Assembly (NCBI GenBank): GCA_019314375.1
Contig: JAFCZJ010000012.1
Span: forward strand, 1-64,000
DNA: 64,000 nucleotides
Direction: 5' to 3'
Source: Deltaproteobacteria bacterium
GTDB lineage: Bacteria; Myxococcota; B64-G9
Position numbers and translations under genes: made by a program. Positions 14,727 through 34,247 of the stretch are shown in pieces (within the stretch, counting starts at the first letter, position 1; the number at the start of each line of letters is the position of its first letter). The notes under the pieces were generated by a model. That model was given only the letters and a program-made list of their open reading frames with translations, did no database searches and was not told where the DNA came from.

Positions 14727-16364
14727 TTGAGGGCCAGGCTTATTGTGATGGTTTTGCTGGTCGGTGCCTGGGCGGCGACGGCCTGCAAGTGTGGCGAGGA
14801 CAAACAAATCGAAGCGGAAAAACCCAAGCTTCGGGCGGAGGCTGATTTTCAGGCCACCTTGGGCAAATTGCCTTCGGTGGCGCAAGCCGAACTGGCCGCC
14901 TGGTTGCCCGCGGACATGGACATGGCCATTGTGGCAGCCAGGCCGGCCGCGGCTTGGGCTTGGTTGGAGAAGCGGCCTTGGTTTGTCGCCTTGCGTCAAA
15001 GTCCGCTGGCAAAAGACCTGGCCTTTGCGGGTCCGCTCTACCGTCTATCCACCGCCCGGCATCGCCTGGCGGCCTTGTCTCTGGTGGACTTGCAGCGCTT
15101 GAGCGTCGATGAACTCTTGGCAAGCCCTTTGGCTCTTGGGCTCAAGAAAGACGAGCAGGGCTTCGGCTGGTTGTTGGTCAAGCAGGTGGATTTGAAAATC
15201 CAGGCTTTGGATCGTTTGGCCGAGGTTTTTAATCAGATCGAAGGTGCCGAGCGCATCAAGCTGGTCGAGGCCGGTGGGCAAGAGATTCGGGTGGTGGATT
15301 TGGGCGAGGACCTGAAGATCTACTACGCGGTTTTTTCCAATTTGCTCCTGGTGAGCAATACGCAGGCAAGGCTGGCGGCAGCCTTGATGCGGCCTGGTGG
15401 TAGCCCCTCCGACAGCCTGTCGGATTTGCCTTTATTTAAGCGTTCCTTGGCGCTTCAGCCCAAAGCGGATGTGAGCTTCTTGCTCCGTCCGGCCATCTTG
15501 GGTTCCTGGGGGCCTTCGGCCATGCCCGGTGAACGCTGGCTGGCTACCTGGACGGCCCAGGACAAGGTCCGCCTGGACTGGGTGGCCGAACCAGGCCCTG
15601 CCGCTACAGCATCCGCCAAATTGGATTTGAAAGCGCTGACGCGCATCTTGCCCGCCGACAGTCGAATGGTTTTGGCCCGTGGTGACGTGAATGTTCAAGA
15701 ATTGCTGACCCGCTTCGTCGCACAAGCAAAGGAAGAAGAAGAAAATGAAAAGGTCAAGAGCAAACCCGGCTTTGAATTGGCCAAGTTGAGCCAGGCTCTT
15801 TCAGGCCAGATTTGTCTGGCCTGGTTGGGGACGGAGAGCCAGCCGCCCCTGCCCTGTATGGCTTTGCTCGTCAAGTTGAAGGACATCAAAGAGACTGAGC
15901 TTGCGGGCATGCTGATCGAGTTTTTCGCCATGACCCTGGGCAGACGACCTGTTGCCGAGGATTTGCCCCAGGTCGGGGGCAGGCGCATATACTTGGTTAA
16001 GGGGACGGGGCTACAACCAGCCTTCGCAACGGTGGATGGCTGGTTGCTTCTGGCCTCCAGCGCCGGTGCATTGAAGGGCCTCTTGGCCACCTTTGTGGGT
16101 CAGCAACCATCCTTGGCCGATAGAAAAGGTTTGGCTACGGCCGACAAGGCAGCTTTGGGCTGGTGGTTCGCGGACATGAAGCCTTTGGCCGCGGACGTTT
16201 TGGCCTTGATGAGGGATTGGGTGGGGCGGGGAAAGAGGTACAACGCCAACGATGTGGAAGACGGTCTGGGAAGCTTCTTCGAGGCCTTGCAGGGCATGGG
16301 GGCTTTCGGCGGAGCCTGGCGGTTTTCTGATGAGGGCTTGGTCGGCGTTTTGGAGCCCCTTTGA
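14727..16364 (+). CDS. Lipoprotein, probable DUF2138 (YfaA)-like protein
   Basis: This 545-residue predicted lipoprotein (AATAC lipobox, then KCGED) opens the alpha-2-macroglobulin operon. Repeated segments such as LLVSNTQARLAAAL and WLLLASSAGALKGLL suggest two related alpha/beta halves, as in DUF2138/DUF3352-like proteins. E. coli YfaA is of similar length and holds the equivalent place beside yfaT and yfaS. I therefore suggest a DUF2138-type protein, mainly on position and architecture. The chosen TTG has GGAGG 6 nt upstream; the frame also opens at a TTG at 14676. Its stop overlaps the next start in TTGA. Biochemical function is unknown; the product is probably periplasmic and membrane-anchored. 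Confidence 0.6.
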   Translation: MRARLIVMVLLVGAWAATACKCGEDKQIEAEKPKLRAEADFQATLGKLPSVAQAELAAWLPADMDMAIVAARPAAAWAWLEKRPWFVALRQSPLAKDLAFAGPLYRLSTARHRLAALSLVDLQRLSVDELLASPLALGLKKDEQGFGWLLVKQVDLKIQALDRLAEVFNQIEGAERIKLVEAGGQEIRVVDLGEDLKIYYAVFSNLLLVSNTQARLAAALMRPGGSPSDSLSDLPLFKRSLALQPKADVSFLLRPAILGSWGPSAMPGERWLATWTAQDKVRLDWVAEPGPAATASAKLDLKALTRILPADSRMVLARGDVNVQELLTRFVAQAKEEEENEKVKSKPGFELAKLSQALSGQICLAWLGTESQPPLPCMALLVKLKDIKETELAGMLIEFFAMTLGRRPVAEDLPQVGGRRIYLVKGTGLQPAFATVDGWLLLASSAGALKGLLATFVGQQPSLADRKGLATADKAALGWWFADMKPLAADVLALMRDWVGRGKRYNANDVEDGLGSFFEALQGMGAFGGAWRFSDEGLVGVLEPL

Positions 16365-17416
16365 GCCTATCGCCTCGCAGCTTGTTGATGGCCACGGTTT
16401 TGGTGGTGGTTTTTTATTCCATGGCGGTCTTTTTGCCCATGAAGGAGCGCTTGCGCCTGGTGCCGGATGCCTTGTCCGCCGATGGATCGAGCTCAGCTCG
16501 ACTCCACTGGTCCATGGGCGGACTTTTCGGCCACAATCTACCCTTGTGGCCCTGGGCGGTGGAGCTCAAGGTGCTGAAGGGGGCCGAGCGAGTGCGAATC
16601 CTGGGCGGGGTGAGTCGTTTGGCGGGGACCGCGACCTTGGACCTGGCCCTGGTGGGCACGGGCTTGGCGGGACCTGTGGAATTGGAGCTTGTTGTCGGGC
16701 CCTGGCGCCATGCGCTGCACCTGGACATGTTGGCACCTGATCTGGATGCGGACAGGGACTCGGATGGTTTTCCGGACTCAGCCGAGCTTTTTGACCCAGC
16801 CGACCGGCGGGCTTTTACGGCCTGGTTTACGAGTATCGCGGAAAGCCAGTTCTACCGGCCAGACCCTCGCTGGGCTCGCGTGCACCGAGACTGTGCCGGT
16901 CTCGCCCGTTTCGCATACAAAGAAGCCCTGCGACCTCATCATGGAGCTTGGCTGGCCAAATCGGGCTACCTGCATCGTGTGCCCAAAGGGGACGTGGAGC
17001 GGTTTTCATATCCTCAGGTGCCTCTCCTCGGCACTCGGCTTTTCCGTAACAAGGCTGGACCCTGGCGCAGAGGCCAGGACGCGACGGATGACTTCTCGGC
17101 TTCGGCCAGCGCCCGGGTTCTGGCCGAGCACAACATGGTTTTTCTTTCCAAAGATCGTGTTTTCGCCCAGGCCGGCGACTTGTTGTTTTTTCATGATCCG
17201 GAACAAGAAGGTAGCGGCTACCACAGCATGATCTTGCTCGATGGGAATCGTGTAGTCTACCACACGGGTGGGGGCGATGGGCAGGCGGGAGAGACACGCT
17301 TGGTCCGCCTTGCCGATTTGGATGCACACAAGGACGAACGCTGGCATGTTCGTCCGGACAATCCTCATTTTCTGGGATTCTTTCGTTGGAAAATTCTCGA
17401 AGGAGGTCGGCCATGA
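16361..17416 (+). CDS. DUF1175 (YfaT-like) protein with NlpC/P60-like Cys-His motif
   Basis: The 351-residue product has an N-terminal hydrophobic segment, a beta-rich extension with DADRDSDGFPDSAE, and then a C-terminal DUF1175 region. There, RDCAGLARF (Cys178) and GYHSMILL (His288) sit like the catalytic Cys and His of NlpC/P60 cell-wall peptidases, with DLLFFHDPE between them. It may therefore be a papain-fold hydrolase; that is inference. E. coli YfaT lies next to the alpha-2-macroglobulin gene yfaS, as here. Translation starts at a TTG in a TTGA overlap with the upstream stop, preceded by GGAG. It ends in an ATGA overlap with the macroglobulin gene. Confidence 0.78.
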   Translation: MSLSPRSLLMATVLVVVFYSMAVFLPMKERLRLVPDALSADGSSSARLHWSMGGLFGHNLPLWPWAVELKVLKGAERVRILGGVSRLAGTATLDLALVGTGLAGPVELELVVGPWRHALHLDMLAPDLDADRDSDGFPDSAELFDPADRRAFTAWFTSIAESQFYRPDPRWARVHRDCAGLARFAYKEALRPHHGAWLAKSGYLHRVPKGDVERFSYPQVPLLGTRLFRNKAGPWRRGQDATDDFSASASARVLAEHNMVFLSKDRVFAQAGDLLFFHDPEQEGSGYHSMILLDGNRVVYHTGGGDGQAGETRLVRLADLDAHKDERWHVRPDNPHFLGFFRWKILEGGRP

Positions 17417-20400
17417 ACGCTTTTGCGCGATCTTGGCATGGATTCTTGATGATCTTGACTGGCTTGTTTTGCCTGGTTCCGGTGGGCAAAGCGCGAGCGG
17501 ATCAACCCCGATTCTACCTGTCTACGGACCGCATCTTCAATCCCGAAGACAAGTTGGTGACTGTGAAGCTGGAGGCCCGGGGTCTGGACTTTTTGGATTT
17601 TCGCGTCTATCGCGTCGCCGATCCGGAAGCGTTTTTCGACAAGCAACAAGATCTACATCGGGTGGTCACGCCCAACAGCGGCGGGCGGACCTCAGGCCTG
17701 GCCCTCTTGGCGGAGGGCTTTAATCAGGGCATGAAGACGGCCTTGAGTTCAGGTCGGGCCTTGTTCAGCCCACAGGCCAGACAAGCCGCGCGGGAAGAGT
17801 TTCCCGAACAAGTGGAAGGGCTGGTGGAGGCGGGTGAGGCACGGCCTGCCCGGGGCTCGGTTCTGCCGCTACTAAAGGGTTTCGATCTGGTGGACATGTG
17901 GCGGGAGCCCACCGGCAAACAAGAAGGGGAATGGGCGTACAAGAATGTCGCCATCCACGCCCGGCGACCCGGGGTTTACCTTGTCGAGGCGGTCAGCGGT
18001 CGCGAGGCGGGCACCACCGTCGTGGTGGTTTCGGGTATGGCGCTTTTGACTCGGCAAAGCCAGGATCGTTTTTTGGTTTATGCCGTGGATCCGGTCCTGG
18101 GCAAGCCACTGGTCGACGCCGAGTTGACCCTCAAGAGGGCGGGAAAAGTATTGGCCAAAGGGCGCAGCGATGCCGATGGCATTTGGGCCAAAGACATTCC
18201 CTTGACTCGTGATCTTGTGGTCTATGCGCGCCGCGGCACCGACTTCGCCTTGCTGGACCCCAGCTATCATCCGGCCCATCTGCCTGGCCGCAAGGTCTAT
18301 CTGACCACGGATCGACCGGTCTACCGGCCTGGTCACACGGTCATGTTCAAAGGCTTGTTGCGAAATTTGGTTCACGAGGCCTACGCCCTTGACCGAGAGG
18401 CCAAGACGGCCAAAGTAGAGGTCAACGATCCCAACGGTCAGCAGGTTTTTGAAGCCGATTTGCCCATCGGGCCCACCGGGGCCTTCCATGGTCGATTCGA
18501 GTTGGATGCCGAGGCCGGTCTAGGAAGCTATCGCATTGTCGCGGAACTGGACGGCAAACCCTACGCCGGCGAGTTTCGGGTCAAGAAATACCGCAAGCCC
18601 GAGTACAAGGTTTCGGTACGGCCTGAGAAGTCGGCCTGCACCGGTGGCGAGAAGGTGGGCGGGTTCGTCCAGGCCAACTACTACTTCGGCCCCCCCGTAC
18701 CCGACGCCAAGATCAAGCTGACGGTTTTCCGCAGCCGTTTCTACCTGCCCTGGTGGGTCGACGCGGATTTCTCCTGGTATTACTCGGACGCTGAATACCG
18801 AAACAGCCTCAGGGAAACGGTGGAGGAACTGGAGGGCAAGTTGGACGCGACCGGGCGTTTCGACTTCAGCTTCACCACCAGTCCGGACAGCATTGATTAT
18901 ACCTACGGCGTGGAGGCGGTGGTCACCGACGCTTCGGCGCAACCCGTCACCGGTCGGAGTCGGGTGCGTGTCACGCGGGCCCGTTTTCATTTGGCCTTGG
19001 AGCCCGAGTACATGTTGAACCGGCCTGGTCAGTCGGTCCGAATCAGGGTGCGCAGCAGAGATTTTTCAGGCAAGCCCGTGGCAGCCAAAGTTCAATTGGA
19101 GCTGCAGGCCCGGACCGGCGTTAATGCAGGGGAGGCCGAGACACAGCGATTGGCCGGGCAGAGTCTGGACACCGGAAAAAAGGGGGAGGCCTGGTTTGTT
19201 TTTGACGCCAAGGCCTCGGGTACTTACCAAATTGCCGCCAAAGCCTCAGATGGCCATGGCGGCATGCTCGAAGCCAAGACTCGGGTTTTCGTCACCTCCG
19301 AGGGCGGTGACATCCCGTATGCGCCCAAAGAGCTGGAAATCATTGCGGATAAACGTTCGTACCGAGAGGGGGAGAAGGCCCGTTTTCTCCTGCTCTGTCC
19401 CCATGCCGACGCCCATCTTCTTTTCACCGTGGAGGGCGGGCGGCTCTATCGGCATGAGGTGGTCAAAAGTCGGGGTTTCTCGGCGGTGGTGGAAGTGCCC
19501 ATCGAAAAAGCCCAGACGCCCAATTTTTTCGTCCGGGCCGCCACAATTTTCGATGGTCAATTGCATGAGCGACGCTTGGACGTGGTGGTGCCGCCGGTGG
19601 ACCGACTGCTGAATGTGGCGGTCTCCGCGGACAAGGCCGAGGCGCGACCAGGTCAGGAGGTGGCTTTCACGGTCACGGTTCTGGATCAAAATGGTCGGCC
19701 CGTGCCCAGGGCCGAGGTGGCTTTGGGCATCGTGGATGAGGCCATTTACGCCTTGAGTCCTGAGCTGGCCGTGCCCATTGGCCGATTTTTCTATCACAGA
19801 AAGCGCAACAACGTGAGGCCTTCTTGTTCTTTGGATTTTCGTTTCTATGGCTACGGGGCGGATGCCAAGGATCGCATGGCCGCCTTGGACATGCGGGCAC
19901 CTGTAGTGCCCGGGTCTTTCAAGTCCCTGGCCAGCCTCAAAGTAAGGCAGAACTTCAAAGATACATTGGACTTCCAAGCCATGCTCGTGACCGGTGCCGA
20001 CGGTCGGGTCAGCCATCGGGTCACCATGCCGGACAACCTGACCACCTGGCGGGCCACGGCTCGAGTCATCACGACGGACACCCGGGTGGGGCAGGGCCTG
20101 GGCAAAATGAAGGTGAACAAGCCCGTGGTGCTGCGCCTGGCCGCGCCTGGTTTTTTTGTTGAAGGAGACAAAAGCACCGTGACTGTGATGGTGCATAACT
20201 ACACGTCCAGCGACTTGCGGCTTACGACGAGCTTGAAAGCCGAGGGACAAGTGGCAAAACTTGAGGGACAAGACCAGGACCTGGAGGTACCCGCTGGCGG
20301 CATGAAGAGCGCCCTCTGGCGCATGGAGGCTGGAGGTGCAGGCCACATTCAGCTTTTGGCTTCGGCCACGGGGAAGGAGGCTGACGCCCTCACTGTGACC

Positions 20401-22026
20401 TTGCCGGTGACTCGCTACGGCTTGGAGCAGGTCTTGTTGGCCTCCGGGGTTTTGGATGAAACGCAGCCCAAGGCAAGCTTTACGCTGAGCATGCCCGCCG
20501 ATGCCGATCCGAAAAGCGGCAAGGCGGGCTTGACCTTGTCTTCGGGGGTGGCGCCGGCCATTTTTGCAGCCATTGATTATTTGAACGCCTATCCTTACCA
20601 CTGCACCGAGCAGACCATGAGCCGCTTTTTGCCTAATTTGGTGGTGGCCAAGGTGATGGGTGACGAGGCCATGGCGCATCGCCGATTGGCGGCGGAACTA
20701 CCCCGGCAAATCCGGACGGGCCTGGCCCGATTGGCCCGCCTGCAGCACGATGACGGAGGCTGGGGTTGGTGGTTTGACGACCCCACTCATGCCTTCATGA
20801 CGGCCTACGTGGTGCAGGGCCTGGCCACGGCCAAGCGTCTGGGGCATCCGGTGGAAGAGAACATGTTTTCCAAGGGCGTCAACCGCCTGAAAGCCCTGAG
20901 TCGATCGAGCAAACTTGGACCGACCCAGCGGGCCTATCTGCTCTACAGCCTGGCCTTGGCCGATGTGAAGTACCCGGCGATGCTGGAGAAACTCAAAGAT
21001 CGGCAAGAGGGGCTGACCGAATATGGCAAGGCGCTCTTGGCCATGGCCATGTTGGAACTGGGCATGCGCGAGCAAGCCATGGAGATTTCGGGGCAGTTGG
21101 ATCTCGCCAGTCACAAAGTGGGTTCGGGTGCCCATTGGGGGGACGAGGCCGGCATGGGCTGGGCCTCCGATCCGGTGGAGAGCACGGCAGCGGTCTTGCG
21201 AGCCCTTTTGGCCACTCGACCCGATTCGGCCCAGGTGGATTCGGCGGTGCGCTATTTAATGGCCGCAAGGCAGGGCAGCCGGTGGCATTCAACCAGGGAT
21301 ACTTCCATGGCGATTTACGCTTTGGTCGACTACCTCAAGAAGTTCGGCGCCAAGAAGATGGCCTCTACCATCGAGGTCCAGTTCAATGAACAGGCGCGGC
21401 CGTCCCGCAAGATTTCAGCGGATGACGTGTTCAAGCCAAGCATTAAGTTGTTCGAGCAACTTACTGCAAAAAAAGGAGAAAACAAGTACGAGGCGGGGCG
21501 GGATGGCCAGGGAGTTTTCTATGTGGACGCCTCTCTCTCTTTCTTTGGCCGGGCTGATCCCATCCCCGCCCGAGGGGGTGCTTTTCTCATCAGCCGCAAA
21601 CTTCAGCGGGTGATCCGCGAGCCTTCGGGCGAGGGTTTTAAGACCCGATTAGAAGCCATCAAGGGAGCCGTATCGCCCGGCGATTTGCTCCTGGTCACCT
21701 TGGACCTGACTGCTTCCCGAGACGCCGAGTTCATCATGGTTTCGGATCCCTTCCCGGCGGGTTCGGTGCCCGTGGAGCGGGACGCTGGTTACAAGATCCC
21801 GGGACTTGAGCTTGTGCAAGCCAGGATGCATCGGGCCTTCCATGATGATCACGTCGCCTTCTTTTTGACCCGAATGCCCAAAGGGCGGCGCAGGCTGGGT
21901 TATTTGATCCGGGCCACCGTGCCTGGGCAATACCGCATGCTGCCGGCCCGGGTGCAGCCCATGTACGACCCCCAATTTGCAGGTAATTCCGCTGGAGACA
22001 GCCTGCTGGTGGAGGTGGGTCCATGA
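17413..22026 (+). CDS. Bacterial alpha-2-macroglobulin, YfaS-like, with intact thioester motif
   Basis: The 1537-residue protein has a cleavable signal peptide (ending ARA-DQ) and no lipobox, so it should be a soluble periplasmic or secreted protease trap. An MG2-like domain (YLTTDRPVYRPGHTVMFKG) and further macroglobulin domains lead to the A2M domain (SHRVTMPDNLTTWRATARV). The thioester motif CTEQ follows at 1064-1067 in YPYHCTEQTMSRFLP, then an alpha-helical complement-like domain (GGWGWWFDDPTHAFMTAYVVQGL). Length nearly equals E. coli YfaS. Such proteins covalently trap attacking proteases. The ATG has AGGAGG upstream and overlaps DUF1175 by 4 nt; its own stop overlaps the next ATG by 4 nt. 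Confidence 0.93.
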   Translation: MNAFARSWHGFLMILTGLFCLVPVGKARADQPRFYLSTDRIFNPEDKLVTVKLEARGLDFLDFRVYRVADPEAFFDKQQDLHRVVTPNSGGRTSGLALLAEGFNQGMKTALSSGRALFSPQARQAAREEFPEQVEGLVEAGEARPARGSVLPLLKGFDLVDMWREPTGKQEGEWAYKNVAIHARRPGVYLVEAVSGREAGTTVVVVSGMALLTRQSQDRFLVYAVDPVLGKPLVDAELTLKRAGKVLAKGRSDADGIWAKDIPLTRDLVVYARRGTDFALLDPSYHPAHLPGRKVYLTTDRPVYRPGHTVMFKGLLRNLVHEAYALDREAKTAKVEVNDPNGQQVFEADLPIGPTGAFHGRFELDAEAGLGSYRIVAELDGKPYAGEFRVKKYRKPEYKVSVRPEKSACTGGEKVGGFVQANYYFGPPVPDAKIKLTVFRSRFYLPWWVDADFSWYYSDAEYRNSLRETVEELEGKLDATGRFDFSFTTSPDSIDYTYGVEAVVTDASAQPVTGRSRVRVTRARFHLALEPEYMLNRPGQSVRIRVRSRDFSGKPVAAKVQLELQARTGVNAGEAETQRLAGQSLDTGKKGEAWFVFDAKASGTYQIAAKASDGHGGMLEAKTRVFVTSEGGDIPYAPKELEIIADKRSYREGEKARFLLLCPHADAHLLFTVEGGRLYRHEVVKSRGFSAVVEVPIEKAQTPNFFVRAATIFDGQLHERRLDVVVPPVDRLLNVAVSADKAEARPGQEVAFTVTVLDQNGRPVPRAEVALGIVDEAIYALSPELAVPIGRFFYHRKRNNVRPSCSLDFRFYGYGADAKDRMAALDMRAPVVPGSFKSLASLKVRQNFKDTLDFQAMLVTGADGRVSHRVTMPDNLTTWRATARVITTDTRVGQGLGKMKVNKPVVLRLAAPGFFVEGDKSTVTVMVHNYTSSDLRLTTSLKAEGQVAKLEGQDQDLEVPAGGMKSALWRMEAGGAGHIQLLASATGKEADALTVTLPVTRYGLEQVLLASGVLDETQPKASFTLSMPADADPKSGKAGLTLSSGVAPAIFAAIDYLNAYPYHCTEQTMSRFLPNLVVAKVMGDEAMAHRRLAAELPRQIRTGLARLARLQHDDGGWGWWFDDPTHAFMTAYVVQGLATAKRLGHPVEENMFSKGVNRLKALSRSSKLGPTQRAYLLYSLALADVKYPAMLEKLKDRQEGLTEYGKALLAMAMLELGMREQAMEISGQLDLASHKVGSGAHWGDEAGMGWASDPVESTAAVLRALLATRPDSAQVDSAVRYLMAARQGSRWHSTRDTSMAIYALVDYLKKFGAKKMASTIEVQFNEQARPSRKISADDVFKPSIKLFEQLTAKKGENKYEAGRDGQGVFYVDASLSFFGRADPIPARGGAFLISRKLQRVIREPSGEGFKTRLEAIKGAVSPGDLLLVTLDLTASRDAEFIMVSDPFPAGSVPVERDAGYKIPGLELVQARMHRAFHDDHVAFFLTRMPKGRRRLGYLIRATVPGQYRMLPARVQPMYDPQFAGNSAGDSLLVEVGP

Positions 22027-22754
22027 GGGCATTGTTGATAGGGGTGGCCGTCTTCCTGGTGGGTCTGGCCGCCACCATGGCGGCTGAATCTGCCGAAGCA
22101 CCCACCGTGTCCATCGATACCCCCAGCGGGGGTTGGTCCACCGAACGCATCGTTGAAATCAGCGGTACGGTAAGCGATGAGGCAATCGAAAGGGCCGTAC
22201 TGGTGGTCAACGGCTATGAGCGCTGGATAGACCTGCAGGTGGGCAAGTTCAGCGCCACCTTGGTGGTGAGCCGTGGTGCCAACACCCTGGAGGTCCTGGC
22301 ACGAAACCAGGCAGGCGAGGGACGGGACAGCGTGTCCGTGTTTTCCGACGTGCCCGCAGTCGACATGCAGGTGGTTTTGAGTTGGGACACCGACAAGACG
22401 GACGTGGACCTGCACGTCACGGATCCCAAAGGCGAAGAATGCTACTACGCCCACAGGGTTACCAAGGCCGCGGGCAAGCTGGACTTGGACGACACGGACG
22501 GCCATGGGCCCGAGGTCTTCACCTTGACCCATGCGCCCACGGGCAAATACCAGGTCTCGGTCAAGTACTATTCATCCGACGGGCATCCCCAGACCCGTTG
22601 TCGTGTGCAGGTGGTGCTTTTTGAGGGCACCAACCGGGAGCGGCGCTTGGAGTTTTTCAAGATTCTGACCAAAACCGGGGACAAGGTGGAAGTGGGTCGC
22701 TTTGATCTGGCCGGCCCTTCGCGAATCGAAGACACCGGGGAGGTGAAACCATGA
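22023..22754 (+). CDS. DUF2135 (YfaP-like) secreted protein
   Basis: This 243-residue protein has a signal peptide (MRALLIGVAVFLVGLAATMAAES). An Ig-like first half (VEISGTVSDEAIERAVLVVNG, a bacterial Ig/cadherin-like strand pattern) is followed by a DUF2135 domain from about 115: VVLSWDTDKTDVDLHVTDPKGEECYY and TLTHAPTGKYQVSVKYYSS. The VDLHV-DP core is diagnostic. E. coli YfaP belongs to the same family and locus type. The conserved Asp residues and YY pair suggest a metal- or ligand-binding fold; no enzyme activity is known. It overlaps both neighbours by 4 nt (ATGA). Confidence 0.85.
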   Translation: MRALLIGVAVFLVGLAATMAAESAEAPTVSIDTPSGGWSTERIVEISGTVSDEAIERAVLVVNGYERWIDLQVGKFSATLVVSRGANTLEVLARNQAGEGRDSVSVFSDVPAVDMQVVLSWDTDKTDVDLHVTDPKGEECYYAHRVTKAAGKLDLDDTDGHGPEVFTLTHAPTGKYQVSVKYYSSDGHPQTRCRVQVVLFEGTNRERRLEFFKILTKTGDKVEVGRFDLAGPSRIEDTGEVKP

Positions 22755-23518
22755 TCCACCGGAACGAACTTGTTCAATACTGTGATGCTCTGCTCGAGGC
22801 AGGCGCTTTCCGTGACGCCTGTCCCAACGGCTTGCAGGTTCATGGGCAGGACCAAGTGGCTCTGGTGGCCACTTGTACGTCTGTTTCGGACGAGTTTTTT
22901 ACCGAGGCCATCCGGGCTGGAGCTCAGCTTGCCCTGGTTCATCATGGCCTGTTTTGGAACGGGGATGAACGCATCATCGATCCACTGATGGGCGGACGCT
23001 TGGGGAGGATTTTGACCGCGGGTTTGAACCTTCTGGCCTATCATCTGCCTTTGGACGCCCACCCGACCTTAGGCAACAACGCGCAATTGGCAGGCTTGCT
23101 GGACCTTAGCGAGCCTCGCTTCGACTTGGGGCTTATCCGGGGTCGGGCCGTGGGTTGCCGCGGGCGTTTGCCAAAAAGTCTGAGCAGTCAAGAGTTGGCT
23201 CACAAGCTCGATCAGGCTTTGGGCGGGAGCAGCCTGGTGCTACCTCAGGGTGATGGGCTCGTCGAACAAGTCGGGATTTTGAGCGGAAGCGGTGGCGATC
23301 TTTCGGTGCTCCTTGAGGCCAAGCGCCTGGGGGTTGAGCTCCTGGTGACCGGCAACCTGCACGAACAGAGCGTGGCGGCGGCTAAGGAACTGGGCTTGAG
23401 CTTGGTGGCCTGCGGTCATTACAACTCGGAGAAACTGGGGGTTCGGGCATTGGGCGACCAAATTGCTGCGCATTTCGGCATTCAGGTGATGCATGTGGAT
23501 GTGCCTAACCCCGTGTAA
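22751..23518 (+). CDS. Nif3-like dinuclear metal centre protein (GTP cyclohydrolase I type 2 family)
   Basis: The 255-residue protein matches the Nif3/YbgI family of toroidal metal-binding proteins. It has NGLQVHG near the start, a metal-ligand segment LALVHHGLFW (His64, His65), YHLPLDAHPTLGNN and a C-terminal CGHYNSEKLGVRALG. The family binds two metal ions; its physiological role is poorly defined. The protein lacks a signal peptide and should be cytoplasmic, unlike most of this operon. It may be a passenger placed between yfaP-like and kinase genes. Its ATG overlaps the upstream stop by 4 nt. Confidence 0.87.
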   Translation: MIHRNELVQYCDALLEAGAFRDACPNGLQVHGQDQVALVATCTSVSDEFFTEAIRAGAQLALVHHGLFWNGDERIIDPLMGGRLGRILTAGLNLLAYHLPLDAHPTLGNNAQLAGLLDLSEPRFDLGLIRGRAVGCRGRLPKSLSSQELAHKLDQALGGSSLVLPQGDGLVEQVGILSGSGGDLSVLLEAKRLGVELLVTGNLHEQSVAAAKELGLSLVACGHYNSEKLGVRALGDQIAAHFGIQVMHVDVPNPV

Positions 23519-23539
23519 TAAGGAGGAAGCATCGTTTTG

Positions 23540-25288
23540 ATGAAGTCTGGCCAAAAAATTGGCAACTACTTGCTGGGTGAGCAGGTAGGCCGAGGCGGCA
23601 TGGCCGAGGTCTTTCGCGCGGAGAATCTTGTCGGCGGAGGCATCCCTCGAATCGTGGCCATCAAGCGACTCTTTGCCAAGTTGGCCGGGGACCGGGAATT
23701 CGTTCAGATGTTTCTCAACGAGGCCCGGATCGCCTTTTCCTTGGAGCATCCCAATCTGGTTCGAAGTTACGACATGCTCAACGAGGGTGGCACTTACTTT
23801 ATCGTCATGGAGTACCTGGAAGGATGTGATCTGGAAGACTTGGTGGCCCGCGCCGCGCCGGGCAAGCTTTGTATGAGCTTGCCTGAAATCCTGCATGTCA
23901 TCTGCGAAGCGGCGCGAGGTTTGGCTTATGCCCATAAGGGCGGCGAGAAGTCCAAGCATGGGCCGGTCGTGCATCGCGACATCAGCCCGGGCAACATCTT
24001 GCTCGATTTGAAGGGGCGGGTGAAGATCACCGACTTCGGCATCGCCCGGGCCAGTCAGCACAGCCGGCTTACCCAGCCCGGAATCTTGAAGGGCAAATAC
24101 GAGTTCATGGCCCCCGAATATGTGGCTCGGGGTGAGTGCGACGGACGATCGGACCTGTTCAGCCTGGGGGTGGTTTTTTACGAGTTGCTCACCGGGAAGA
24201 ATCCTTTTTCCGATGTGTTGCCCGGTGATATCTGGAAGAAAATCATGGAGTTTGATCCACCTCCCGCCGGGAAGGTGGTGTCCGGCGTACCGGCCGAGGT
24301 GGACCGGGTGCTGGCATGGATGCTCGCCAAGGATCCAAAGCGTCGAGTGCCCGACGGCGGCTCTGTGCTGGAGGCCCTTGAACCGCTATATGCCTATGCG
24401 GGTCCGGATGAGACGGCTCGATTAATCGGCATGCGCGTTACTCAACAAATCAAGCCCGCTGATCCCTCGGCCATGTCTGAATATCTGCCGATAGAGGATG
24501 AGGGAGAGGAGCGGGGGGACGCCACCCAGAATATCATCAACACCGATGGTTTGCTGGGCCTGGTGGAGTCGCCTTCAGCTCCATCTGTGCCTGTGTTGTC
24601 TGAGAATATGCTCATCACCAGCATGGACGGCGAAACCACCACACCTCGGCTGCGTGATTTCAAGCGTCGTAAAATTCGATTGTGGCTTTTCGTCGCCGCG
24701 GGGATTGCCTTGATGGCCCTGGCCGGCGGATTGACCTGGGGGCTGTGGCCCGAGCCGGCCGGCAAATTGTCGGTCCGATCGGACCGGCGGGCCGAGGTAT
24801 TTGTTGATGATCGGCCCCTGGGTTTGGCTCCAATACGGGAATCGCCTCTGAGCGTGGGCGATCATGTGATTGAGGTGCGACGCCCGGGCAGTCAGCGCAT
24901 CAAGCGCTATGAACGGACACTTGTCGAAGACCAGCATTTGGAGATTCAGGTCCGCTGGGCCCGTCCCGTCAGCAAAGCCAAGGCCAGAAAACGCAGAGTA
25001 AACAGCAGTAAGAAGAAGAAGAACCGCAGGAAGAGGACCAGGAAGAAGACCAGGAAGAAGACCAGAAAGAAGACCAGAAAGAAGACCAGGAAGAAGACCC
25101 GGAAGAAGACCCGGAAGAAGACCCGGAAGAAGACCCGGAAGAAGACCCGGAAGAAGACCCGGAAGAAGACCCGGAAGAAGACCCGGAAGAAGACCAGCAA
25201 GAAGACCAGCAAGAAGACCAGCAAGAAGACCAGCAAGAAGAAGACCAGCAAGAAGACCAGGAAGAAGACCAAGAAGGGGCAAGCATGA
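23540..25288 (+). CDS. Ser/Thr protein kinase with TM, PEGA domain and (RKKT)n tail
   Basis: The 582-residue Hanks-type kinase has GRGGMAEV (about 19-26), Lys42, the catalytic loop HRDISPGN with Asp147, and DFG starting at Asp165. After the kinase domain and a linker, a single membrane span lies near 378-398. A PEGA domain (about 408-470) follows, then a basic C-terminus of about 20 near-perfect four-residue units (RKKT, later SKKT) from about residue 497. The kinase faces the cytoplasm; PEGA and the basic tail should be periplasmic and could bind anionic polymers such as peptidoglycan or LPS. It starts 21 nt after the nif3-like gene (AGGAGG at 23521) and overlaps the next gene by 4 nt. Confidence 0.9.
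   Translation: MKSGQKIGNYLLGEQVGRGGMAEVFRAENLVGGGIPRIVAIKRLFAKLAGDREFVQMFLNEARIAFSLEHPNLVRSYDMLNEGGTYFIVMEYLEGCDLEDLVARAAPGKLCMSLPEILHVICEAARGLAYAHKGGEKSKHGPVVHRDISPGNILLDLKGRVKITDFGIARASQHSRLTQPGILKGKYEFMAPEYVARGECDGRSDLFSLGVVFYELLTGKNPFSDVLPGDIWKKIMEFDPPPAGKVVSGVPAEVDRVLAWMLAKDPKRRVPDGGSVLEALEPLYAYAGPDETARLIGMRVTQQIKPADPSAMSEYLPIEDEGEERGDATQNIINTDGLLGLVESPSAPSVPVLSENMLITSMDGETTTPRLRDFKRRKIRLWLFVAAGIALMALAGGLTWGLWPEPAGKLSVRSDRRAEVFVDDRPLGLAPIRESPLSVGDHVIEVRRPGSQRIKRYERTLVEDQHLEIQVRWARPVSKAKARKRRVNSSKKKKNRRKRTRKKTRKKTRKKTRKKTRKKTRKKTRKKTRKKTRKKTRKKTRKKTRKKTRKKTSKKTSKKTSKKTSKKKTSKKTRKKTKKGQA
25028..25270 (+). repeat. About twenty 12-bp tandem repeats encoding (R/S)KKT
   Basis: Units of the form (A/C)GGAAGAAGACC or AGCAAGAAGACC repeat with 12-bp period. 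The first 14 encode RKRT/RKKT (25028-25195); the rest are mostly SKKT, one with an extra AAG codon. Copy-to-copy differences are synonymous or conservative. The array lies wholly inside the kinase gene and stays in frame to its stop. Confidence 0.92.
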
Positions 25289-26310
25289 GGCCTGAGTTCT
25301 GCATGCTGGGTTTCTTGTTCCTTTTGAGTCTATTTGCGCCCGGGGCTCGTGCTCAAGCTTTGGATGGCAAGTTGCGCGCTTGTCTGGCCGAGCGTTTGTC
25401 TGCCCGGCCGGGGCCTGAGGCCCTTGGCGAGCGGGACGCTTTCGGTCTGATGGCGGTCGACAGCGGGCACCTGCTCTGGCGTTCCCAGGGACGGACCTTG
25501 GCCCAGGTGGAGGCCGGACCCGGTTCTTTGTTCAAGGTCATCGCGGCTTACGCCGCCCTGGAGACCCGAAAGGTCAAGCCCGATCATGTGCTGCGATGTG
25601 AACCCGGCAGAAAGCCCGAGGGGCCGAAGGGGCAAAAGGTTCGCTGCTGGACGGCCGCGGGCCATGGTCCCGTCAACCTGAGCAGGGCCTTGGCTTTGTC
25701 CTGCAACCGCTATTTTGCCTGGCTGGGTGGGCAGGTGGGCACGGCGGATTTACTGCGTTCGGCCCGAGCTTTCGGGCTCGGCCAGGGTACGGGAAGCGAC
25801 CTGCCTGGTGAGAGAACCGGCAGCCTGCCGCGAGCGCCCAGTCAGGCCATGGCTGGTCGACTGGCGGTGGGGCAGGCCGAGGGTTTGATGGTAACGCCCT
25901 TGCAAATGTTGGTGGTGGCCGCGAGTCTGGCCAATGGGGGTCGGCGCTTTCGTCCTTGTTCCAAGACGCCGGCGGGTCCGCCATCTGAAGTACGGGCTGT
26001 CATCGAGTCCGGCCCGAGCCTGCGCTTCATCCGGGAGGGACTCATTCAGGCCTCGGCCTATGGCACGGGCAGCGCAAGCGGCTTGGCTCAGCTCGGCATG
26101 GCAGGCAAGACCGGCACGGCGGGCTGGGCGGGCATGAATTGGCACACCCATGGCTGGTACATGGGTTGGGCGCCCGCGGCTCGGCCCGAGTTGGCCCTGG
26201 TGGTCTTCATCCAGGAAGGTCAAGGAGCCAAGGATGCCGCGGCCGCGGCCAGGCAGATCATGGAGCAGGTTCAGCTCGAAAGAAAGGCCTGCGAAGGGGA
26301 GGACCGGTGA
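25285..26310 (+). CDS. Penicillin-binding transpeptidase-like protein
   Basis: This 341-residue protein has a signal peptide (ending ARA-QA) and a compact transpeptidase/beta-lactamase-fold domain with all three catalytic motifs: SLFK (81-84), SCN (139-141) and KTGTAG (275-280). It lacks a PBP dimerisation domain or transglycosylase, so it resembles a stand-alone D,D-transpeptidase or carboxypeptidase module of class B PBP ancestry. It should act on peptidoglycan in the periplasm. E. coli pairs its other alpha-2-macroglobulin, YfhM, with PBP1c, so a PBP-like partner here is suggestive. It overlaps the kinase and SpoIID-like genes by 4 nt each. Confidence 0.85.
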   Translation: MRPEFCMLGFLFLLSLFAPGARAQALDGKLRACLAERLSARPGPEALGERDAFGLMAVDSGHLLWRSQGRTLAQVEAGPGSLFKVIAAYAALETRKVKPDHVLRCEPGRKPEGPKGQKVRCWTAAGHGPVNLSRALALSCNRYFAWLGGQVGTADLLRSARAFGLGQGTGSDLPGERTGSLPRAPSQAMAGRLAVGQAEGLMVTPLQMLVVAASLANGGRRFRPCSKTPAGPPSEVRAVIESGPSLRFIREGLIQASAYGTGSASGLAQLGMAGKTGTAGWAGMNWHTHGWYMGWAPAARPELALVVFIQEGQGAKDAAAAARQIMEQVQLERKACEGEDR

Positions 26311-27473
26311 GAATTTTTTTGCTGGTCGTGTTGCTTGCTTGGTCTCGGCCGATTCTGGCAGATGAAGTTTTGCGTATCGGCATTCTGAGCCGTCATCGAC
26401 CTGCCGAACTCCTGGTGGAGGCCTTGCCCCAGGGAGCCAAACTGCAAGTCGAGATCGTGGCTTTGGATGGTCGGGTGGAAAAGCGCCAGGTTAAAAGGCT
26501 TGAACTGCGCTGTGGAGGGGATGCCCCGGTGATGGGTTTGGGACGTGCGGGAGCACGCTTTAGACTGCGGCCGTCCAGGGGGAAAATGCTGCGTTTGACG
26601 CTGCCTGGTAAGTTCAAGCGTAGCTATAAGGGATGGCTGGACCTATCTGAAAACAAGGGACTTTGCAGGGTCGTACTTCATTCCCCATTGGAAGCCTATG
26701 TGGAGTCGGTGGCCTGCGCCGAACTGGGTCCTGCCGCGCCGGCCGAGGCCCTCCGTGCCCAGGCCATTTTGGCCCGAACCTATGCTTTGACCAACCGGGG
26801 AAGACATGAAGCCGAGGGTTTTGAGCTTTGCGATCTGACCCACTGTCAGATGTTTACCGGAGAGCAAGCCTGCAGTTCGGCCCAACGATCGATTCTGGCT
26901 TCGGTTCGGGGTCAGGTGCTGCGTTATGGAGATAAGCTGGCCCAGGTGGCTTTTTTCTCCACCTGCGCCGGGCATACGGCCTCGGCTCGGGATGTCTGGG
27001 GACCTGCCGCGGATAGACCCTATCTGCGGGGTGTGAAAGACGGGGAATCGCAGGCCCATTGCGCCGCCTCCGATCACTGGCGATGGCGTTTTCAGCTGCC
27101 GGCGACTGAGCTTTGTGCCCGACTGCGAGGGGAGTTGCCGGGCCTGGGTGCCGGTCCTTGCAGGGTGACGGTGGCCAAGGAGGGACATGGCGGCTGGGTG
27201 CGCGAGATGAGCATCGAGGCCGCGGGTCGGGTTGAACTCAGCGGGGCGCGTTTTCACATGCTCATGGGTCGCTGGTATGGCTGGGGCAAGTTCAAGAGCG
27301 GTCGTTTTCAGGTCGAAGCCCGGGGTCCGAATTTGGTGTTTTTGGGCCAAGGCATGGGCCATGGGGTGGGTTTGTGTCAGCATGGGGCCATGGGCATGGC
27401 CAAAAAGGGCGCGGAGGCCTCGGAAATCCTCAAACATTATTTTCCAGGCACGAAGATTGGCAGGCTGCCATGA
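26307..27473 (+). CDS. SpoIID/LytB-domain protein
   Basis: The 388-residue secreted protein contains a SpoIID/LytB domain: LEAYVESVACAELGPAAPAEALRAQAILARTYAL, then FFSTCAGHTASARDVWG, PYLRGVKD and the C-terminal MGHGVGLCQHGAMGMAKKG. In SpoIID this fold is a lytic transglycosylase of denuded glycan, and in LytB it enhances amidase activity, so it probably modifies peptidoglycan. I chose the GTG at 26307 because it gives a clean signal peptide (IFLLVVLLAWSRPILA) and a GTGA overlap; the frame opens earlier inside the PBP-like gene. Together with the PBP-like protein it may fill the role of DUF2300/YfaQ in yfa-type loci; that link is untested. Confidence 0.83.
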   Translation: MRIFLLVVLLAWSRPILADEVLRIGILSRHRPAELLVEALPQGAKLQVEIVALDGRVEKRQVKRLELRCGGDAPVMGLGRAGARFRLRPSRGKMLRLTLPGKFKRSYKGWLDLSENKGLCRVVLHSPLEAYVESVACAELGPAAPAEALRAQAILARTYALTNRGRHEAEGFELCDLTHCQMFTGEQACSSAQRSILASVRGQVLRYGDKLAQVAFFSTCAGHTASARDVWGPAADRPYLRGVKDGESQAHCAASDHWRWRFQLPATELCARLRGELPGLGAGPCRVTVAKEGHGGWVREMSIEAAGRVELSGARFHMLMGRWYGWGKFKSGRFQVEARGPNLVFLGQGMGHGVGLCQHGAMGMAKKGAEASEILKHYFPGTKIGRLP

Positions 27474-28168
27474 AAAGACTGGGTTTTTTGGCTTGCTCGT
27501 TTTTGCTCCTGCTCTCGGTTCCTGCCGAGGCCCGCATCATCACGGCCTGTGACCGGGTGGAAATCCTCATGCCTCGGGAAGTCGATTCCGATCTGGCCGA
27601 GAAAATGGCCGGGGGGCTCTGCGCCGACTTGCAGCACTTGGAAAAACTCTTCGGCCTGCGTTTGGGGCCAAGGCTGCGAGTCCAAGTGGCCGTCGACATG
27701 AAAGATTATCGCCGCCGCGCGCGAAGGGACTGGGGTATCGTGGCCGTCTGGCAAGAACAAGGCATCCTGACCCAGCCAGCCCGTTCCCTGCGTCGCATCG
27801 TCGACCTGCGGGAGGTCCTGGCCCACGAACTGGTCCACGGCCTCGTCCGACGTCGCTGTGGCCGGACCTGTCCCCGCTGGCTGGAAGAGGGCCTGGCGGT
27901 CTACCTGTCCGGCCAGCGACCCCAAGGCCGCCCGCCCAGCAACAAAGCCGAACTGGCCGCTCTGGAAAACCGCCTCCGGGCGGGTCGCGCCGATCGCGTC
28001 CAAAGCCAAAAAGACTACGGCGCCTGCAGGGCCCTGGTAGAGCGGCTCATTCAGACCGTGGGCCGCGAGGTCCTGCTCGGCTCTTTGGAGCGTTTTCGGG
28101 ATTCAAAGCTGGGCTTGGGCGTCAAGCTGGGCGCGGGTCGAAGCGAAGTCTGGCTTTGGAAAAAATAG
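27470..28168 (+). CDS. Secreted HExxH zinc metallopeptidase-like protein
   Basis: This 232-residue protein has a signal peptide (ending AEA-R) and a gluzincin-like motif HELVHG (His119, Glu120, His123). EEGLAVYLSG follows about 20 residues later and can supply the third zinc ligand (Glu139 or Glu140). That pattern fits small peptidase MA-like metalloproteases. The substrate is unknown. It is the last gene of the macroglobulin operon and overlaps the SpoIID-like gene in ATGA. It may process the macroglobulin or another envelope protein; that is speculative. Confidence 0.72.
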   Translation: MKRLGFLACSFLLLLSVPAEARIITACDRVEILMPREVDSDLAEKMAGGLCADLQHLEKLFGLRLGPRLRVQVAVDMKDYRRRARRDWGIVAVWQEQGILTQPARSLRRIVDLREVLAHELVHGLVRRRCGRTCPRWLEEGLAVYLSGQRPQGRPPSNKAELAALENRLRAGRADRVQSQKDYGACRALVERLIQTVGREVLLGSLERFRDSKLGLGVKLGAGRSEVWLWKK

Positions 28169-31208: not shown

Positions 31209-32066
31209 ATGGCCGAGGCCAATTCTTCTGCTAAGACCGACTACGACGAGCGATTCTTTAATGCATCCGACGGCCTGCGTCTTTATTATCGTCGCTGGGC
31301 CGCGGCCGAGCCGAAGGGCATCATCGGCCTTGTTCACGGCTTTGCCGAGCATTCGGGTCGCTATGACGAACTGGCCCTTGATTTGGTGGGCGGCGGTTAC
31401 ACCGTGGCTGCTTTTGATTATCGCGGTCACGGTCAGAGTGGCGGACGGCGGGCTCACATCGACGCTTTCGATGAATACATGGATGACTTGAAGTCTTTTT
31501 TGGTCGAGATGGAGCGGGAAGGCCTGGCGCACAAGCCCATTCTGTTGGGCCACAGCCAGGGTGGTCTTTTGGTGGCCCGCTTGGCTGAACTTGTGCCCGA
31601 GGTTGCCAAGGCCCTGGTGCTGAGTTCTCCATTTTTCGGTTTGGCCATGAAGGTGCCGGCCGTCAAGTTGGCGCTGGCCAAGGCGGTTTCCATGCTTATC
31701 CCCACCCTGTCCATGCCCAGCGGCGTGGACTCGGCCTGGTTGAGCCATGATCGTGCCGTGGTGGAGCGCTATGCGGCCGACCCCCTGGTGAGCCAGGTGG
31801 CCACGGCTCGTTGGTTCACCGAGACGGTCAAGGCACAGGCCAGCACCTTGGCCGACGCGGGCAAGATCAAGCTGCCCACGGTGGTGCTACAGGCCGGCGA
31901 CGACAAGTTGGCGAGCTTGGACGCCACGCGTAAGTTCTTTTCGGCCCTCGGTTCCGAGGATAAGCAGTTGGAAATTTACTCGGAATACTTCCACGAGATC
32001 TTCAACGAAGTAGGTCGCGACAAGGTTGTGGCTGATCTCTTGGCATGGCTGGAGGCGCACGCGTGA
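31209..32066 (+). CDS. Alpha/beta hydrolase, monoacylglycerol lipase/lysophospholipase-like
   Basis: The 285-residue protein is a serine-aminopeptidase-S33-type alpha/beta hydrolase. It has the oxyanion region GLVHGFAEHSGRY, the nucleophile elbow GHSQGG, AGDDKLAS near the catalytic Asp and a late YFHEIFNE with the catalytic His. This pattern matches monoacylglycerol lipases and lysophospholipases. No signal peptide is present, so it should act in the cytoplasm or at the membrane face. GGAGG precedes the ATG. The stop overlaps the next gene's GTG start, so a joint role in phospholipid turnover with the CDP-alcohol transferase is likely. Confidence 0.85.
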   Translation: MAEANSSAKTDYDERFFNASDGLRLYYRRWAAAEPKGIIGLVHGFAEHSGRYDELALDLVGGGYTVAAFDYRGHGQSGGRRAHIDAFDEYMDDLKSFLVEMEREGLAHKPILLGHSQGGLLVARLAELVPEVAKALVLSSPFFGLAMKVPAVKLALAKAVSMLIPTLSMPSGVDSAWLSHDRAVVERYAADPLVSQVATARWFTETVKAQASTLADAGKIKLPTVVLQAGDDKLASLDATRKFFSALGSEDKQLEIYSEYFHEIFNEVGRDKVVADLLAWLEAHA

Positions 32067-32827
32067 ACCAGGCCTGGCGGACTTTGATACCGAATCTTTT
32101 CACCGCCACCAGCGCGGTTTTCGGCATGACCTCCATGTGGCTTTCCGTCGAGGGCAATTTCTATTGGGCCTCTTGGTTCATCTTGTGGAGCGCACTTTTG
32201 GACAAGGCCGACGGCACGGCGGCGCGTTTGCTCAAGGGCTCTTCCAAATTCGGCATGGAGTTTGACTCCATGGCGGATTTGATCGCTTTTGGTTTGGCTC
32301 CGGCGATGCTGATTGCTTCGGCCGGCAGCAAACTTTGGTTTTTGGGTGTTGGGCAATGGGGCAGCATGCTTCTGTTAATAGCTTGCGGTTTTTACGCATT
32401 GATGGCCGTCGTGCGCCTGGCCCGCTTTAACTTAATCGAACCGAAGCCCGGTGAGCGCAATTTTATCGGCTTGCCCTCGACCTTGGCCGGTGTCATCGTG
32501 CCGGCGGCTTTTTTGTTGGCCACCAAATATCAGCTACCCGAGACGGTGTTGCGGTTTTTTCCGGTGCTGTTGCTGGTTTTGGCTTTGGGCATGGTCAGCA
32601 ACATGCCCGTGCCCAAGATCAAGCCCAGGGCTTCGAAGGCTTTCAATGTTTTTCAGGTGGTCAACGCGGTGGTGGTTTACACCTGCGGTGTGCTGATGGT
32701 CGGCGAGGAATATTTTTTGTTGTTGGTGGTCTCTTTTATCCTCATCGGCGCGTCTTTGGAACTCATCCGGGGCCACAGAATGCAGCGACAAGCTGGTGAA
32801 GACGCTTCGGCGGAGGCTTCGGGTTGA
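32063..32827 (+). CDS. pssA: CDP-alcohol phosphatidyltransferase, probable phosphatidylserine synthase
   Basis: This 254-residue integral membrane protein carries the full CDP-alcohol motif: Asp47, Asp50-Gly51, Ala54-Arg55, Gly64, Asp68 and Asp72 (DG-x2-AR-x8-G-x3-D-x3-D). It has about seven hydrophobic segments. The opening NQAWRTLIPNLFTATSAVFG and the MPVPKIKP segment are typical of type II phosphatidylserine synthases, which make phosphatidylserine from CDP-diacylglycerol and serine. The GTG at 32063 overlaps the hydrolase stop (GTGA) and has GGAGG at 32051; an ATG at 32045 is also in frame. The family is sure; the exact alcohol is inferred. Confidence 0.83.
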   Translation: MNQAWRTLIPNLFTATSAVFGMTSMWLSVEGNFYWASWFILWSALLDKADGTAARLLKGSSKFGMEFDSMADLIAFGLAPAMLIASAGSKLWFLGVGQWGSMLLLIACGFYALMAVVRLARFNLIEPKPGERNFIGLPSTLAGVIVPAAFLLATKYQLPETVLRFFPVLLLVLALGMVSNMPVPKIKPRASKAFNVFQVVNAVVVYTCGVLMVGEEYFLLLVVSFILIGASLELIRGHRMQRQAGEDASAEASG

Positions 32828-32842
32828 CCCATGCCAAGCGGA

Positions 32843-32872
32843 TTGACAAGGGTTGGGCGATGTTGGTATCGT
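32843..32872 (+). promoter_or_regulatory. Sigma70-like promoter of the bactofilin operon
   Basis: A perfect TTGACA (32843-32848) is followed after 18 nt by TATCGT (32867-32872). It lies in the 98-nt gap before the first bactofilin, whose ATG at 32926 is preceded by AGGAG. Confidence 0.55.
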
Positions 32873-32925
32873 GCCGACTCTAAGAGAAGCATGGGTGTTC
32901 AAACATCAACAAGGAGACAGGCGCC

Positions 32926-33270
32926 ATGGCCGCTGAAGCACCGGGTGTGATCGGCAAAGGGATCAGCATTCGAGGAAATCTCAGTGGAGGCGGGGACCTC
33001 ATCATCGAGGGGACCGTTGAAGGACAAATCGCGCTGAAAAATCATCTGACCATCGAAGAGACGGGCGTCGTCCGAGCCGACATCGAGGTCGAACGCCTGA
33101 CCATCAAGGGCGAGGCCAGCGGCAACATCGTGGCCAGCGATCGAGTGGCCATCTTGGCCAACGCCAAGGTGATGGGCGACATCAAAGCGCCGGTTGTGGT
33201 CATTGAAGACGGAGCCGGATTCAAGGGCAACGTGGACATGGACGTCCAATTGCCCGACGGCATTTTGTAA
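32926..33270 (+). CDS. Bactofilin 1
   Basis: This 114-residue protein is almost entirely one bactofilin (DUF583) beta-helix domain: short flanks around repeating strands such as SIRGNLSGGGDLIIEGTVEGQI, VVRADIEVERLTIKGEASGNI and ANAKVMGDIKAPVVVIEDGAGFKGNVDM. Bactofilins polymerise into cytoskeletal filaments that scaffold envelope synthesis, chromosome segregation or appendages. It is the first of three tandem paralogues and is followed by a 35-nt gap. The short tails resemble the Myxococcus BacN/BacO type more than BacM. Confidence 0.93.
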   Translation: MAAEAPGVIGKGISIRGNLSGGGDLIIEGTVEGQIALKNHLTIEETGVVRADIEVERLTIKGEASGNIVASDRVAILANAKVMGDIKAPVVVIEDGAGFKGNVDMDVQLPDGIL

Positions 33271-33305
33271 ACCAACCATCCATTAGAGTTTCCAAGGAGA
33301 GCATC

Positions 33306-33617
33306 ATGGCCAATGTCATCGGCAGGTCGATCGTCATCGATGGTGAAATCACGGGCGATGAGGATCTGGTGATCCAGGGCACGGTCAAGGGTAAGATCAG
33401 CCTGAAAGAGAGTCTCTACGTAGAAAATTCCGGCGTGGTGGAGGCTGATATCGAGACCCAGAACGTGGACATCTCGGGCTCCGTCACCGGCAACATTGTA
33501 GCCACGGAAAAAGTCGAGTTGAAGAGTGATGGACGCATGGTGGGCGACATCAAGGCACCTCGCATCCTCATCGCGGATGGTGCGGTCTTCAAGGGCAACG
33601 TGGACATGGACCGATAG
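33306..33617 (+). CDS. Bactofilin 2
   Basis: The 103-residue protein is a minimal bactofilin beta-helix (SIVIDGEITGDEDLVIQGTVKGKI, VVEADIETQNVDISGSVTGNI, MVGDIKAPRILIADGAVFKGNVDM). It closely resembles its two neighbours and probably co-polymerises with them. An AAGGAG site lies just before the ATG. It has essentially no disordered tails, so it may act as a structural subunit. Confidence 0.93.
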   Translation: MANVIGRSIVIDGEITGDEDLVIQGTVKGKISLKESLYVENSGVVEADIETQNVDISGSVTGNIVATEKVELKSDGRMVGDIKAPRILIADGAVFKGNVDMDR

Positions 33618-33663
33618 GGTCTTTGTTTGCTGGTAACGCTTCGCAACTGAAAGGACAAGCTCG

Positions 33664-34221: not shown

Positions 34222-34247
34222 CCTTTCGGACAACGGAATATCCCATC

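Follow-up and report, generated by a model that had tools for sequence, protein, structure and literature searches.

We analysed nine tightly packed genes around an alpha-2-macroglobulin gene at 14727-28168 of a 64,000-nucleotide stretch of contig JAFCZJ010000012.1 (hereafter the window), which comes from a little-studied group of bacteria resembling myxobacteria. Judged from their sequences, seven of the nine are a complete Mag/Yfa macroglobulin operon: its transpeptidase, SpoIID and HExxH genes correspond, in unfused form, to the three domains of YfaQ/MagE (DUF2300), and the mag genes flank both sides of a resident pair of genes for a NIF3 protein and a kinase. We favour, at a probability of about 60%, the reading that the products of this seven-gene operon around the resident NIF3-kinase pair form an envelope-guard complex, in which a macroglobulin trap would be combined with wall editing.

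Organization of the nine-gene array

The genes of the array are as follows.

14727..16364, + strand: DUF2138 protein of the YfaA/MagB type, predicted to be a lipoprotein (AATAC lipobox); assigned by profile-profile comparison, and in first position as yfaA is in E. coli
16361..17416, + strand: DUF1175 protein (YfaT/MagC), NlpC/P60-like domain with an N-terminal transmembrane segment and a beta domain; Pfam 3.6e-59
17413..22026, + strand: YfaS/MagD-type alpha-2-macroglobulin with an intact thioester motif (YPYHCTEQ); Pfam MG2, bMG10, A2M, bait and TED
22023..22754, + strand: DUF2135 protein, YfaP/MagF-type, secreted; Pfam 1.5e-5 and hhalign against YfaP
22751..23518, + strand: DUF34/NIF3 protein, cytoplasmic, resident, outside the mag set; Pfam 3.8e-52
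23540..25288, + strand: Ser/Thr kinase with a transmembrane helix, a weak PEGA match and a Lys/Arg-rich tail, resident, outside the mag set; Pfam 3.3e-42
25285..26310, + strand: secreted class B penicillin-binding protein (PBP)-type transpeptidase domain, the T of the YfaQ/MagE module; Pfam 5.1e-43
26307..27473, + strand: SpoIID-type lytic transglycosylase, the S of the module; Pfam 4.1e-18, TIGR02669 6e-54
27470..28168, + strand: secreted HExxH (gluzincin-like) putative metallopeptidase, the H of the module; weak Peptidase_MA match

All nine open reading frames (ORFs) were confirmed in place on the + strand, with starts at 14727 (TTG), 16361 (TTG), 17413, 22023, 22751, 23540, 25285, 26307 (GTG) and 27470. 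An earlier reading made from the DNA letters alone (the sequence-only reading) had described nine same-strand genes packed with 4-nt overlaps everywhere except before the kinase, and the ORF coordinates agree: of eight junctions, seven have such an overlap, and at the remaining one the kinase gene is separated from its neighbour by 21 nt. Its gene names likewise hold up against Pfam and NCBIfam, save that ORF1 had no Pfam match and the HExxH protein a weak match only; its description of ORF1 as DUF2138-like was supported by profile-profile comparison with YfaA (below). A sigma-70 promoter scan scored no better than shuffles, and an Rfam search returned zero matches.

The core genes are of the Mag/Yfa type

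The profile of the ORF1 family matched that of YfaA at 96.9% (E 1.6e-10, 431 columns; unrelated control profile, E 0.097). Downstream of this DUF2138 (YfaA) gene lies the DUF1175 gene, itself directly upstream of the macroglobulin gene. The DUF1175 protein matched P. aeruginosa MagC (PDB 7bk8) by phmmer (4.2e-24) and Foldseek (4.5e-12, TM 0.81 on the target), and its residues D177, C178, H288 and H301 are unvarying among 28 aligned sequences. The macroglobulin is nearer YfaS (1e-72) than YfhM (1e-39), a YfaS/MagD assignment that its placement in the macroglobulin tree also supports, and the DUF2135 protein matched YfaP by hhalign (99.6%, E 5.7e-25). A YfaS/MagD-type macroglobulin, DUF1175, DUF2138 and DUF2135, the features by which a Mag/Yfa locus is recognised, are thus all found in the window. 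The Pfam model of DUF2300 (PF10062) matched in none of 193 genomes of the phylum, the source genome included; since that match is absent and the three domains are present as separate genes, we regard the window operon as a variant rather than a plain member of the Mag/Yfa set.

The CxEQ thioester is kept in nearly all lineages, namely the window's family, Archangium, Acidobacteriota, most beta-proteobacteria and part of Pseudomonas, and is lost in Enterobacterales and the rest of Pseudomonas. This distribution points to the thioester-less 'Type II' state of the YfaS/MagD family being derived, through loss in Enterobacterales and in some Pseudomonas. The source genome also holds a second, YfhM-like macroglobulin adjoining a PbpC-like PBP, the classical pair (G000:C280, L135 3751-11949), as well as four more matches to bait domains.

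Transpeptidase, SpoIID and HExxH genes are the parts of a split DUF2300

The E. coli order is yfaA-yfaT-yfaS-yfaQ-yfaP, and YfaQ, a tandem DUF2300 protein, is the sole product without an obvious counterpart in the window. Because blastp found no match to YfaQ when the window proteins were compared with the E. coli locus, profiles were needed to relate the two. Profiles of the split genes matched the single YfaQ sequence for the transpeptidase (3.7e-5, around SLWK and SCG) and for SpoIID (1.1e-4, around EEYV...EAAKAM...RTF), and the profile of transpeptidase-SpoIID fusions aligned with a 28-sequence DUF2300 profile over 356 collinear columns (97.7%, E 2e-12; controls, E 0.04-0.55). In the hhalign comparisons, template columns were set by the default rule, and matches and controls were handled alike. 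YfaQ was itself matched by the Pfam SpoIID model above cut-off (26.8 versus 23 bits), and an AlphaFold2 model of a YfaQ (pLDDT 90) had class A and D beta-lactamases and PBP3 as PDB matches, consistent with a serine beta-lactamase/PBP fold. The HExxH profile was not significant against YfaQ alone (E 0.2), and a larger one matched the C-terminus of DUF2300 (26%, E 7e-4; reversed control, 0.63), where a HEYLH motif is near-invariant at the expected place.

Other lineages carry the same three domains in other arrangements (written below with a slash at gene boundaries). In Archangium and Acidobacteriota, DUF1175-macroglobulin-DUF2135 precedes a gene that fuses transpeptidase and SpoIID, with HExxH in a gene of its own (TS/H); Proteobacteria have all three domains fused as DUF2300/YfaQ (TSH); and other Myxococcota have DUF2135-DUF1175-macroglobulin followed by a permuted HExxH-transpeptidase-SpoIID protein of 735-762 aa (HTS), whose domains were recognised by hhalign at E 3e-5, 2e-10 and 9e-14 (controls, at least 0.36). 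All three arrangements adjoin a YfaS/MagD-type macroglobulin. One genome (G014) has a transpeptidase gene beside a SpoIID-HExxH fusion (T/SH), at a locus apart from its macroglobulin. In the macroglobulin tree the permuted, the split-or-TS and the TSH architectures separate, and forms with HExxH only are nested within TSH. Some large genomes of the f8 group (G141, G165, G169 and G177) carry a family-type mag locus together with a permuted, HTS-type DUF1175 locus; the Archangium locus (L061) belongs to G177.

In the literature searched, we found neither the identification of DUF2300 as a transpeptidase-SpoIID-HExxH fusion nor its split intact form, the permuted fusions or the separation of NIF3 and kinase from the set; beyond one unrelated proteome paper, none of the papers names DUF2300 or connects SpoIID with macroglobulins. 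The Mag operon and a trap-and-repair idea for the YfhM-PbpC pair were already known.

Catalytic motifs

The window transpeptidase has all three class B PBP motifs, SxxK, SxN and KTG (as SLFK, SCN and KTGT), and its PDB relatives are PBP2, FtsI and SpoVD. Its match covers the catalytic domain alone (residues 74-327 of 341), and Pfam did not match an N-terminal class B pedestal domain. SCN and KTGT are intact in all split and TS forms, as is SxxK in the window protein and in the others inspected; the permuted HTS form also keeps SxxK, SCN and KTGT. DUF2300 retains SxxK and SC and has lost KTG (GGxAGW). The SpoIID Glu and C-H-C motif are unvarying in 13 aligned split, TS and HTS sequences and align in the window protein with those of the solved SpoIID structures 4rwr and 5i1t. 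SpoIID cleaves denuded glycan, for which the conserved Glu is required, and E101, C140 and H145 of the C. difficile protein are required for activity in vitro (PMC6221140). The HExxH protein keeps HELVH...WLEEG in all relatives.

Recurrence in sister genomes and the resident NIF3-kinase pair

Our survey covered 80 named loci, and in its labels G-numbers denote genomes and L-numbers loci. In three further genera of the family (G001, G003 and G006) all nine genes stand in the same order; G007 has the same array without NIF3, and G002 and G005 have consistent partial arrays ended by contig edges. The array is therefore more than a chance grouping. Protein identities between sister genera are about 40-70%, and the named matches are metagenome-assembled genomes labelled Deltaproteobacteria, Myxococcales or Myxococcota. 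The family also includes two genomes, G004 and G008, in which the window macroglobulin has no close relative. Across the phylum, DUF1175 occurs in 87 of 195 genomes and SpoIID-type genes in 189 of 195; since SpoIID-type genes are this widespread, the evidence lies in linkage and fusions, not in SpoIID alone.

NIF3 and the kinase were absent from the mag operons outside the window's family among the named loci. Without a window-type macroglobulin, G004 has the order NIF3-kinase-hydrolase-bactofilins-pyrE and G008 the order kinase-hydrolase-bactofilins-pyrE. The window has the same block 3' of the HExxH gene, separated from it by a ParE-type pair and a TPR gene:

31209..34823, + strand: resident block of an alpha/beta hydrolase, a CDP-alcohol phosphatidyltransferase, three bactofilins and pyrE (Pfam)

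The hydrolase also comes after HExxH in L057, L058, L060 and L140, and NIF3 is single-copy in seven of nine genomes of the family. Because both genes are found without the macroglobulin before the hydrolase-bactofilin-pyrE block in sister genomes (NIF3 in G004), we regard NIF3 and the kinase as residents; the mag genes may have been inserted around them, or else lost from G004 and G008. All seven kinase orthologues checked for topology have a transmembrane helix and a basic tail, as does that of G004, so the kinase design is not specific to the macroglobulin; Pfam found the kinase domain and the weak PEGA match, and no extracytoplasmic PASTA repeats. The tail of the window kinase, (RKKT)n, is encoded by a 12-bp tandem repeat at 25027-25276 (20.6 copies of CAGGAAGAAGAC), and those of its orthologues differ in sequence.

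These results bear on what the sequence-only reading had made of the array. That this was an 'expanded' macroglobulin operon does not survive as meant, since seven of its genes are the ordinary mag/yfa set with DUF2300 split in three; for the same seven of nine genes, its view that no described system has this composition falls away once DUF2300 is read as a three-gene fusion, which leaves the NIF3 and kinase genes outside the known set. Its neighbourhood prediction came out in part: all five of the extra genes were found again in sister genera, and three of them, but not NIF3 and the kinase, recur outside the family. The proposed periplasmic protease-trap machine wired to cell-wall sensing and repair is supported in its cell-wall half, as the T, S and H domains partner the macroglobulin in Myxococcota, Acidobacteriota and, as DUF2300/YfaQ, Proteobacteria; its signalling half is not supported, as NIF3 and the kinase are residents.

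Other genes of the window include a ParE-type toxin gene and, upstream of it, a small putative antitoxin gene (28212-28604 and 28606-28896, - strand), between the HExxH gene and the hydrolase block; a gene (9131-11443) for a peptidase of the clostripain family, which also has EGF-like and pre-peptidase C-terminal domains; and a gene for an acyltransferase with a long N-terminal AKTTQAK-type repeat (12380-13648, - strand).

A candidate envelope-guard mechanism and its rivals

The trap plus wall-editing mechanism that we favour draws on sequence and on the literature on other Mag systems. The Mag/Yfa products would form an envelope-guard complex, with the macroglobulin tethered at the inner membrane by YfaA and held near peptidoglycan by DUF1175. 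In P. aeruginosa, the only species for which a complex of Mag proteins at the inner membrane has been demonstrated, MagB anchors and stabilises MagD there (PMC5764988), and MagC/DUF1175, which is NlpC/P60-like, binds peptidoglycan (Zouhir 2021, as cited in PMC10318531). A cut in the bait region by an incoming protease would expose the thioester and lead to covalent capture of the protease, and attackers other than proteases may also be captured; MagD protects against the peptidoglycan-targeting type VI secretion system effectors VgrG3 and Tae1 (PMC12663445). The T-S-H unit would act on the wall at the site of the macroglobulin, with SpoIID clearing stripped glycan strands and the transpeptidase re-crosslinking; the most likely role of the HExxH domain is that of a protease by which the macroglobulin is matured or activated. 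The fused T-S-H of Proteobacteria, with its KTG-less transpeptidase, may serve more for wall binding and maturation.

Several points weigh against this mechanism. The strongest published one is that earlier work placed MagE in the cytoplasm (PMC5764988), a poor fit with a wall enzyme; DUF1175 has also been termed inactive (PMC10318531). Transpeptidase and SpoIID activities of the window operon are predicted from motifs, and the relation of HExxH to DUF2300, weak alone, relies on collinearity and the motif. Some macroglobulin loci have no adjoining module (G014, with its module elsewhere in the genome, L141 of G105, and the spirochaete locus L065), and three loci keep the HExxH part alone (L083, L103 and L105, of Competibacteraceae, Schekmanbacteria and Magnetococcales). 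Since these HExxH-only lineages fit a maturation role better than wall repair, they lead to the main rival, in which T-S-H mainly matures or assembles the macroglobulin: HExxH would trim or activate it, and the transpeptidase and SpoIID folds would only bind peptidoglycan to position the complex. The near-invariance of HEYLH and the loss of KTG in DUF2300 agree with this, as does the effect of MagE loss, after which there is less MagD and higher-mass MagD forms remain (PMC5764988). Yet the window proteins and the TS and HTS fusions keep SxxK, SxN, KTGT, the SpoIID Glu and C-H-C, which would not be expected of mere binding domains, and we consider this rival unlikely, if to be taken seriously.

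The other two alternatives concern the composition of the array. If all nine genes were a single machine, the kinase would sense wall damage and signal for the trap and repair genes; the order is kept within the family, co-transcription is likely from the 4-nt overlaps, and every orthologue of the kinase spans the membrane and has a basic tail on the periplasmic side. We think this improbable, as the NIF3-kinase pair (G004) or the kinase (G008) occurs without the macroglobulin, mag operons elsewhere are without both, and the kinase lacks PASTA repeats and has its basic tail in G004 too. On the same occurrences, the kinase and NIF3 were rejected as default parts of the machine. A chance association, in which a single lineage happened to carry unrelated wall genes next to the macroglobulin, could appeal to the several other SpoIID-type genes of Myxococcota genomes, but it is already contradicted by the recurrence of the same three domains, variously fused, beside the same macroglobulin in several phyla, and we give it hardly any credence.

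Taken further than the envelope-guard complex itself, the data allow a more tentative and rather doubtful proposal, that Mag/Yfa macroglobulins provide the capturing part of a machine for guarding and repairing peptidoglycan, with T-S-H as its enzymatic arm, and are not primarily inhibitors of host proteases. In E. coli and Pseudomonas that arm would take the form of DUF2300, fused and in part decayed, which would explain why it had escaped recognition, and the thioester may then target wall-attacking enzymes or peptidoglycan itself. Recognition of DUF2300 as a T-S-H fusion, with separate motif-intact versions in Myxococcota, gives three concrete candidate activities, makes predicted wall enzymes part of the Mag system in several phyla, and ties the macroglobulin family to cell-wall work. 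T-S-H is therefore a candidate enzymatic partner for the protection by MagD against peptidoglycan-attacking effectors (PMC12663445).

Comparison with known systems

With the SpoIID/SpoIIP engulfment machinery, the window shares the SpoIID fold, catalytic Glu and C-H-C metal motif; unlike that machinery it has no SpoIIP amidase, and the nearest companion is the NlpC/P60-like DUF1175 protein. The YfhM-PbpC pair (Type I) likewise links a thioester (CxEQ) macroglobulin to a wall-building enzyme and has its own trap-and-repair idea (Budd et al. 2004, as described in PMC5764988), but its macroglobulin belongs to another clade and PbpC is a bifunctional class A PBP. No such PBP lies beside the window macroglobulin; the adjacent protein has, by Pfam, a class B-like transpeptidase domain only. 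Among the Pseudomonas loci, P. aeruginosa magABCDEF has DUF1175 (MagC, structure 7bk8) and a YfaS/MagD-type macroglobulin, and P. viridiflava and other Pseudomonas loci run YfaP-YfaA-YfaT-A2M-YfaQ-YfaP. They differ from the window in that MagE (DUF2300) is a single fused protein whose transpeptidase part is without KTG, NIF3 and the kinase are absent, and some Pseudomonas have lost the thioester. In the E. coli yfa locus, YfaQ is also fused, and yfaS is without the thioester and a pseudogene in K-12; the shared genes nevertheless stand in the same order as in the window, and the domains of YfaQ follow one another as T-S-H.

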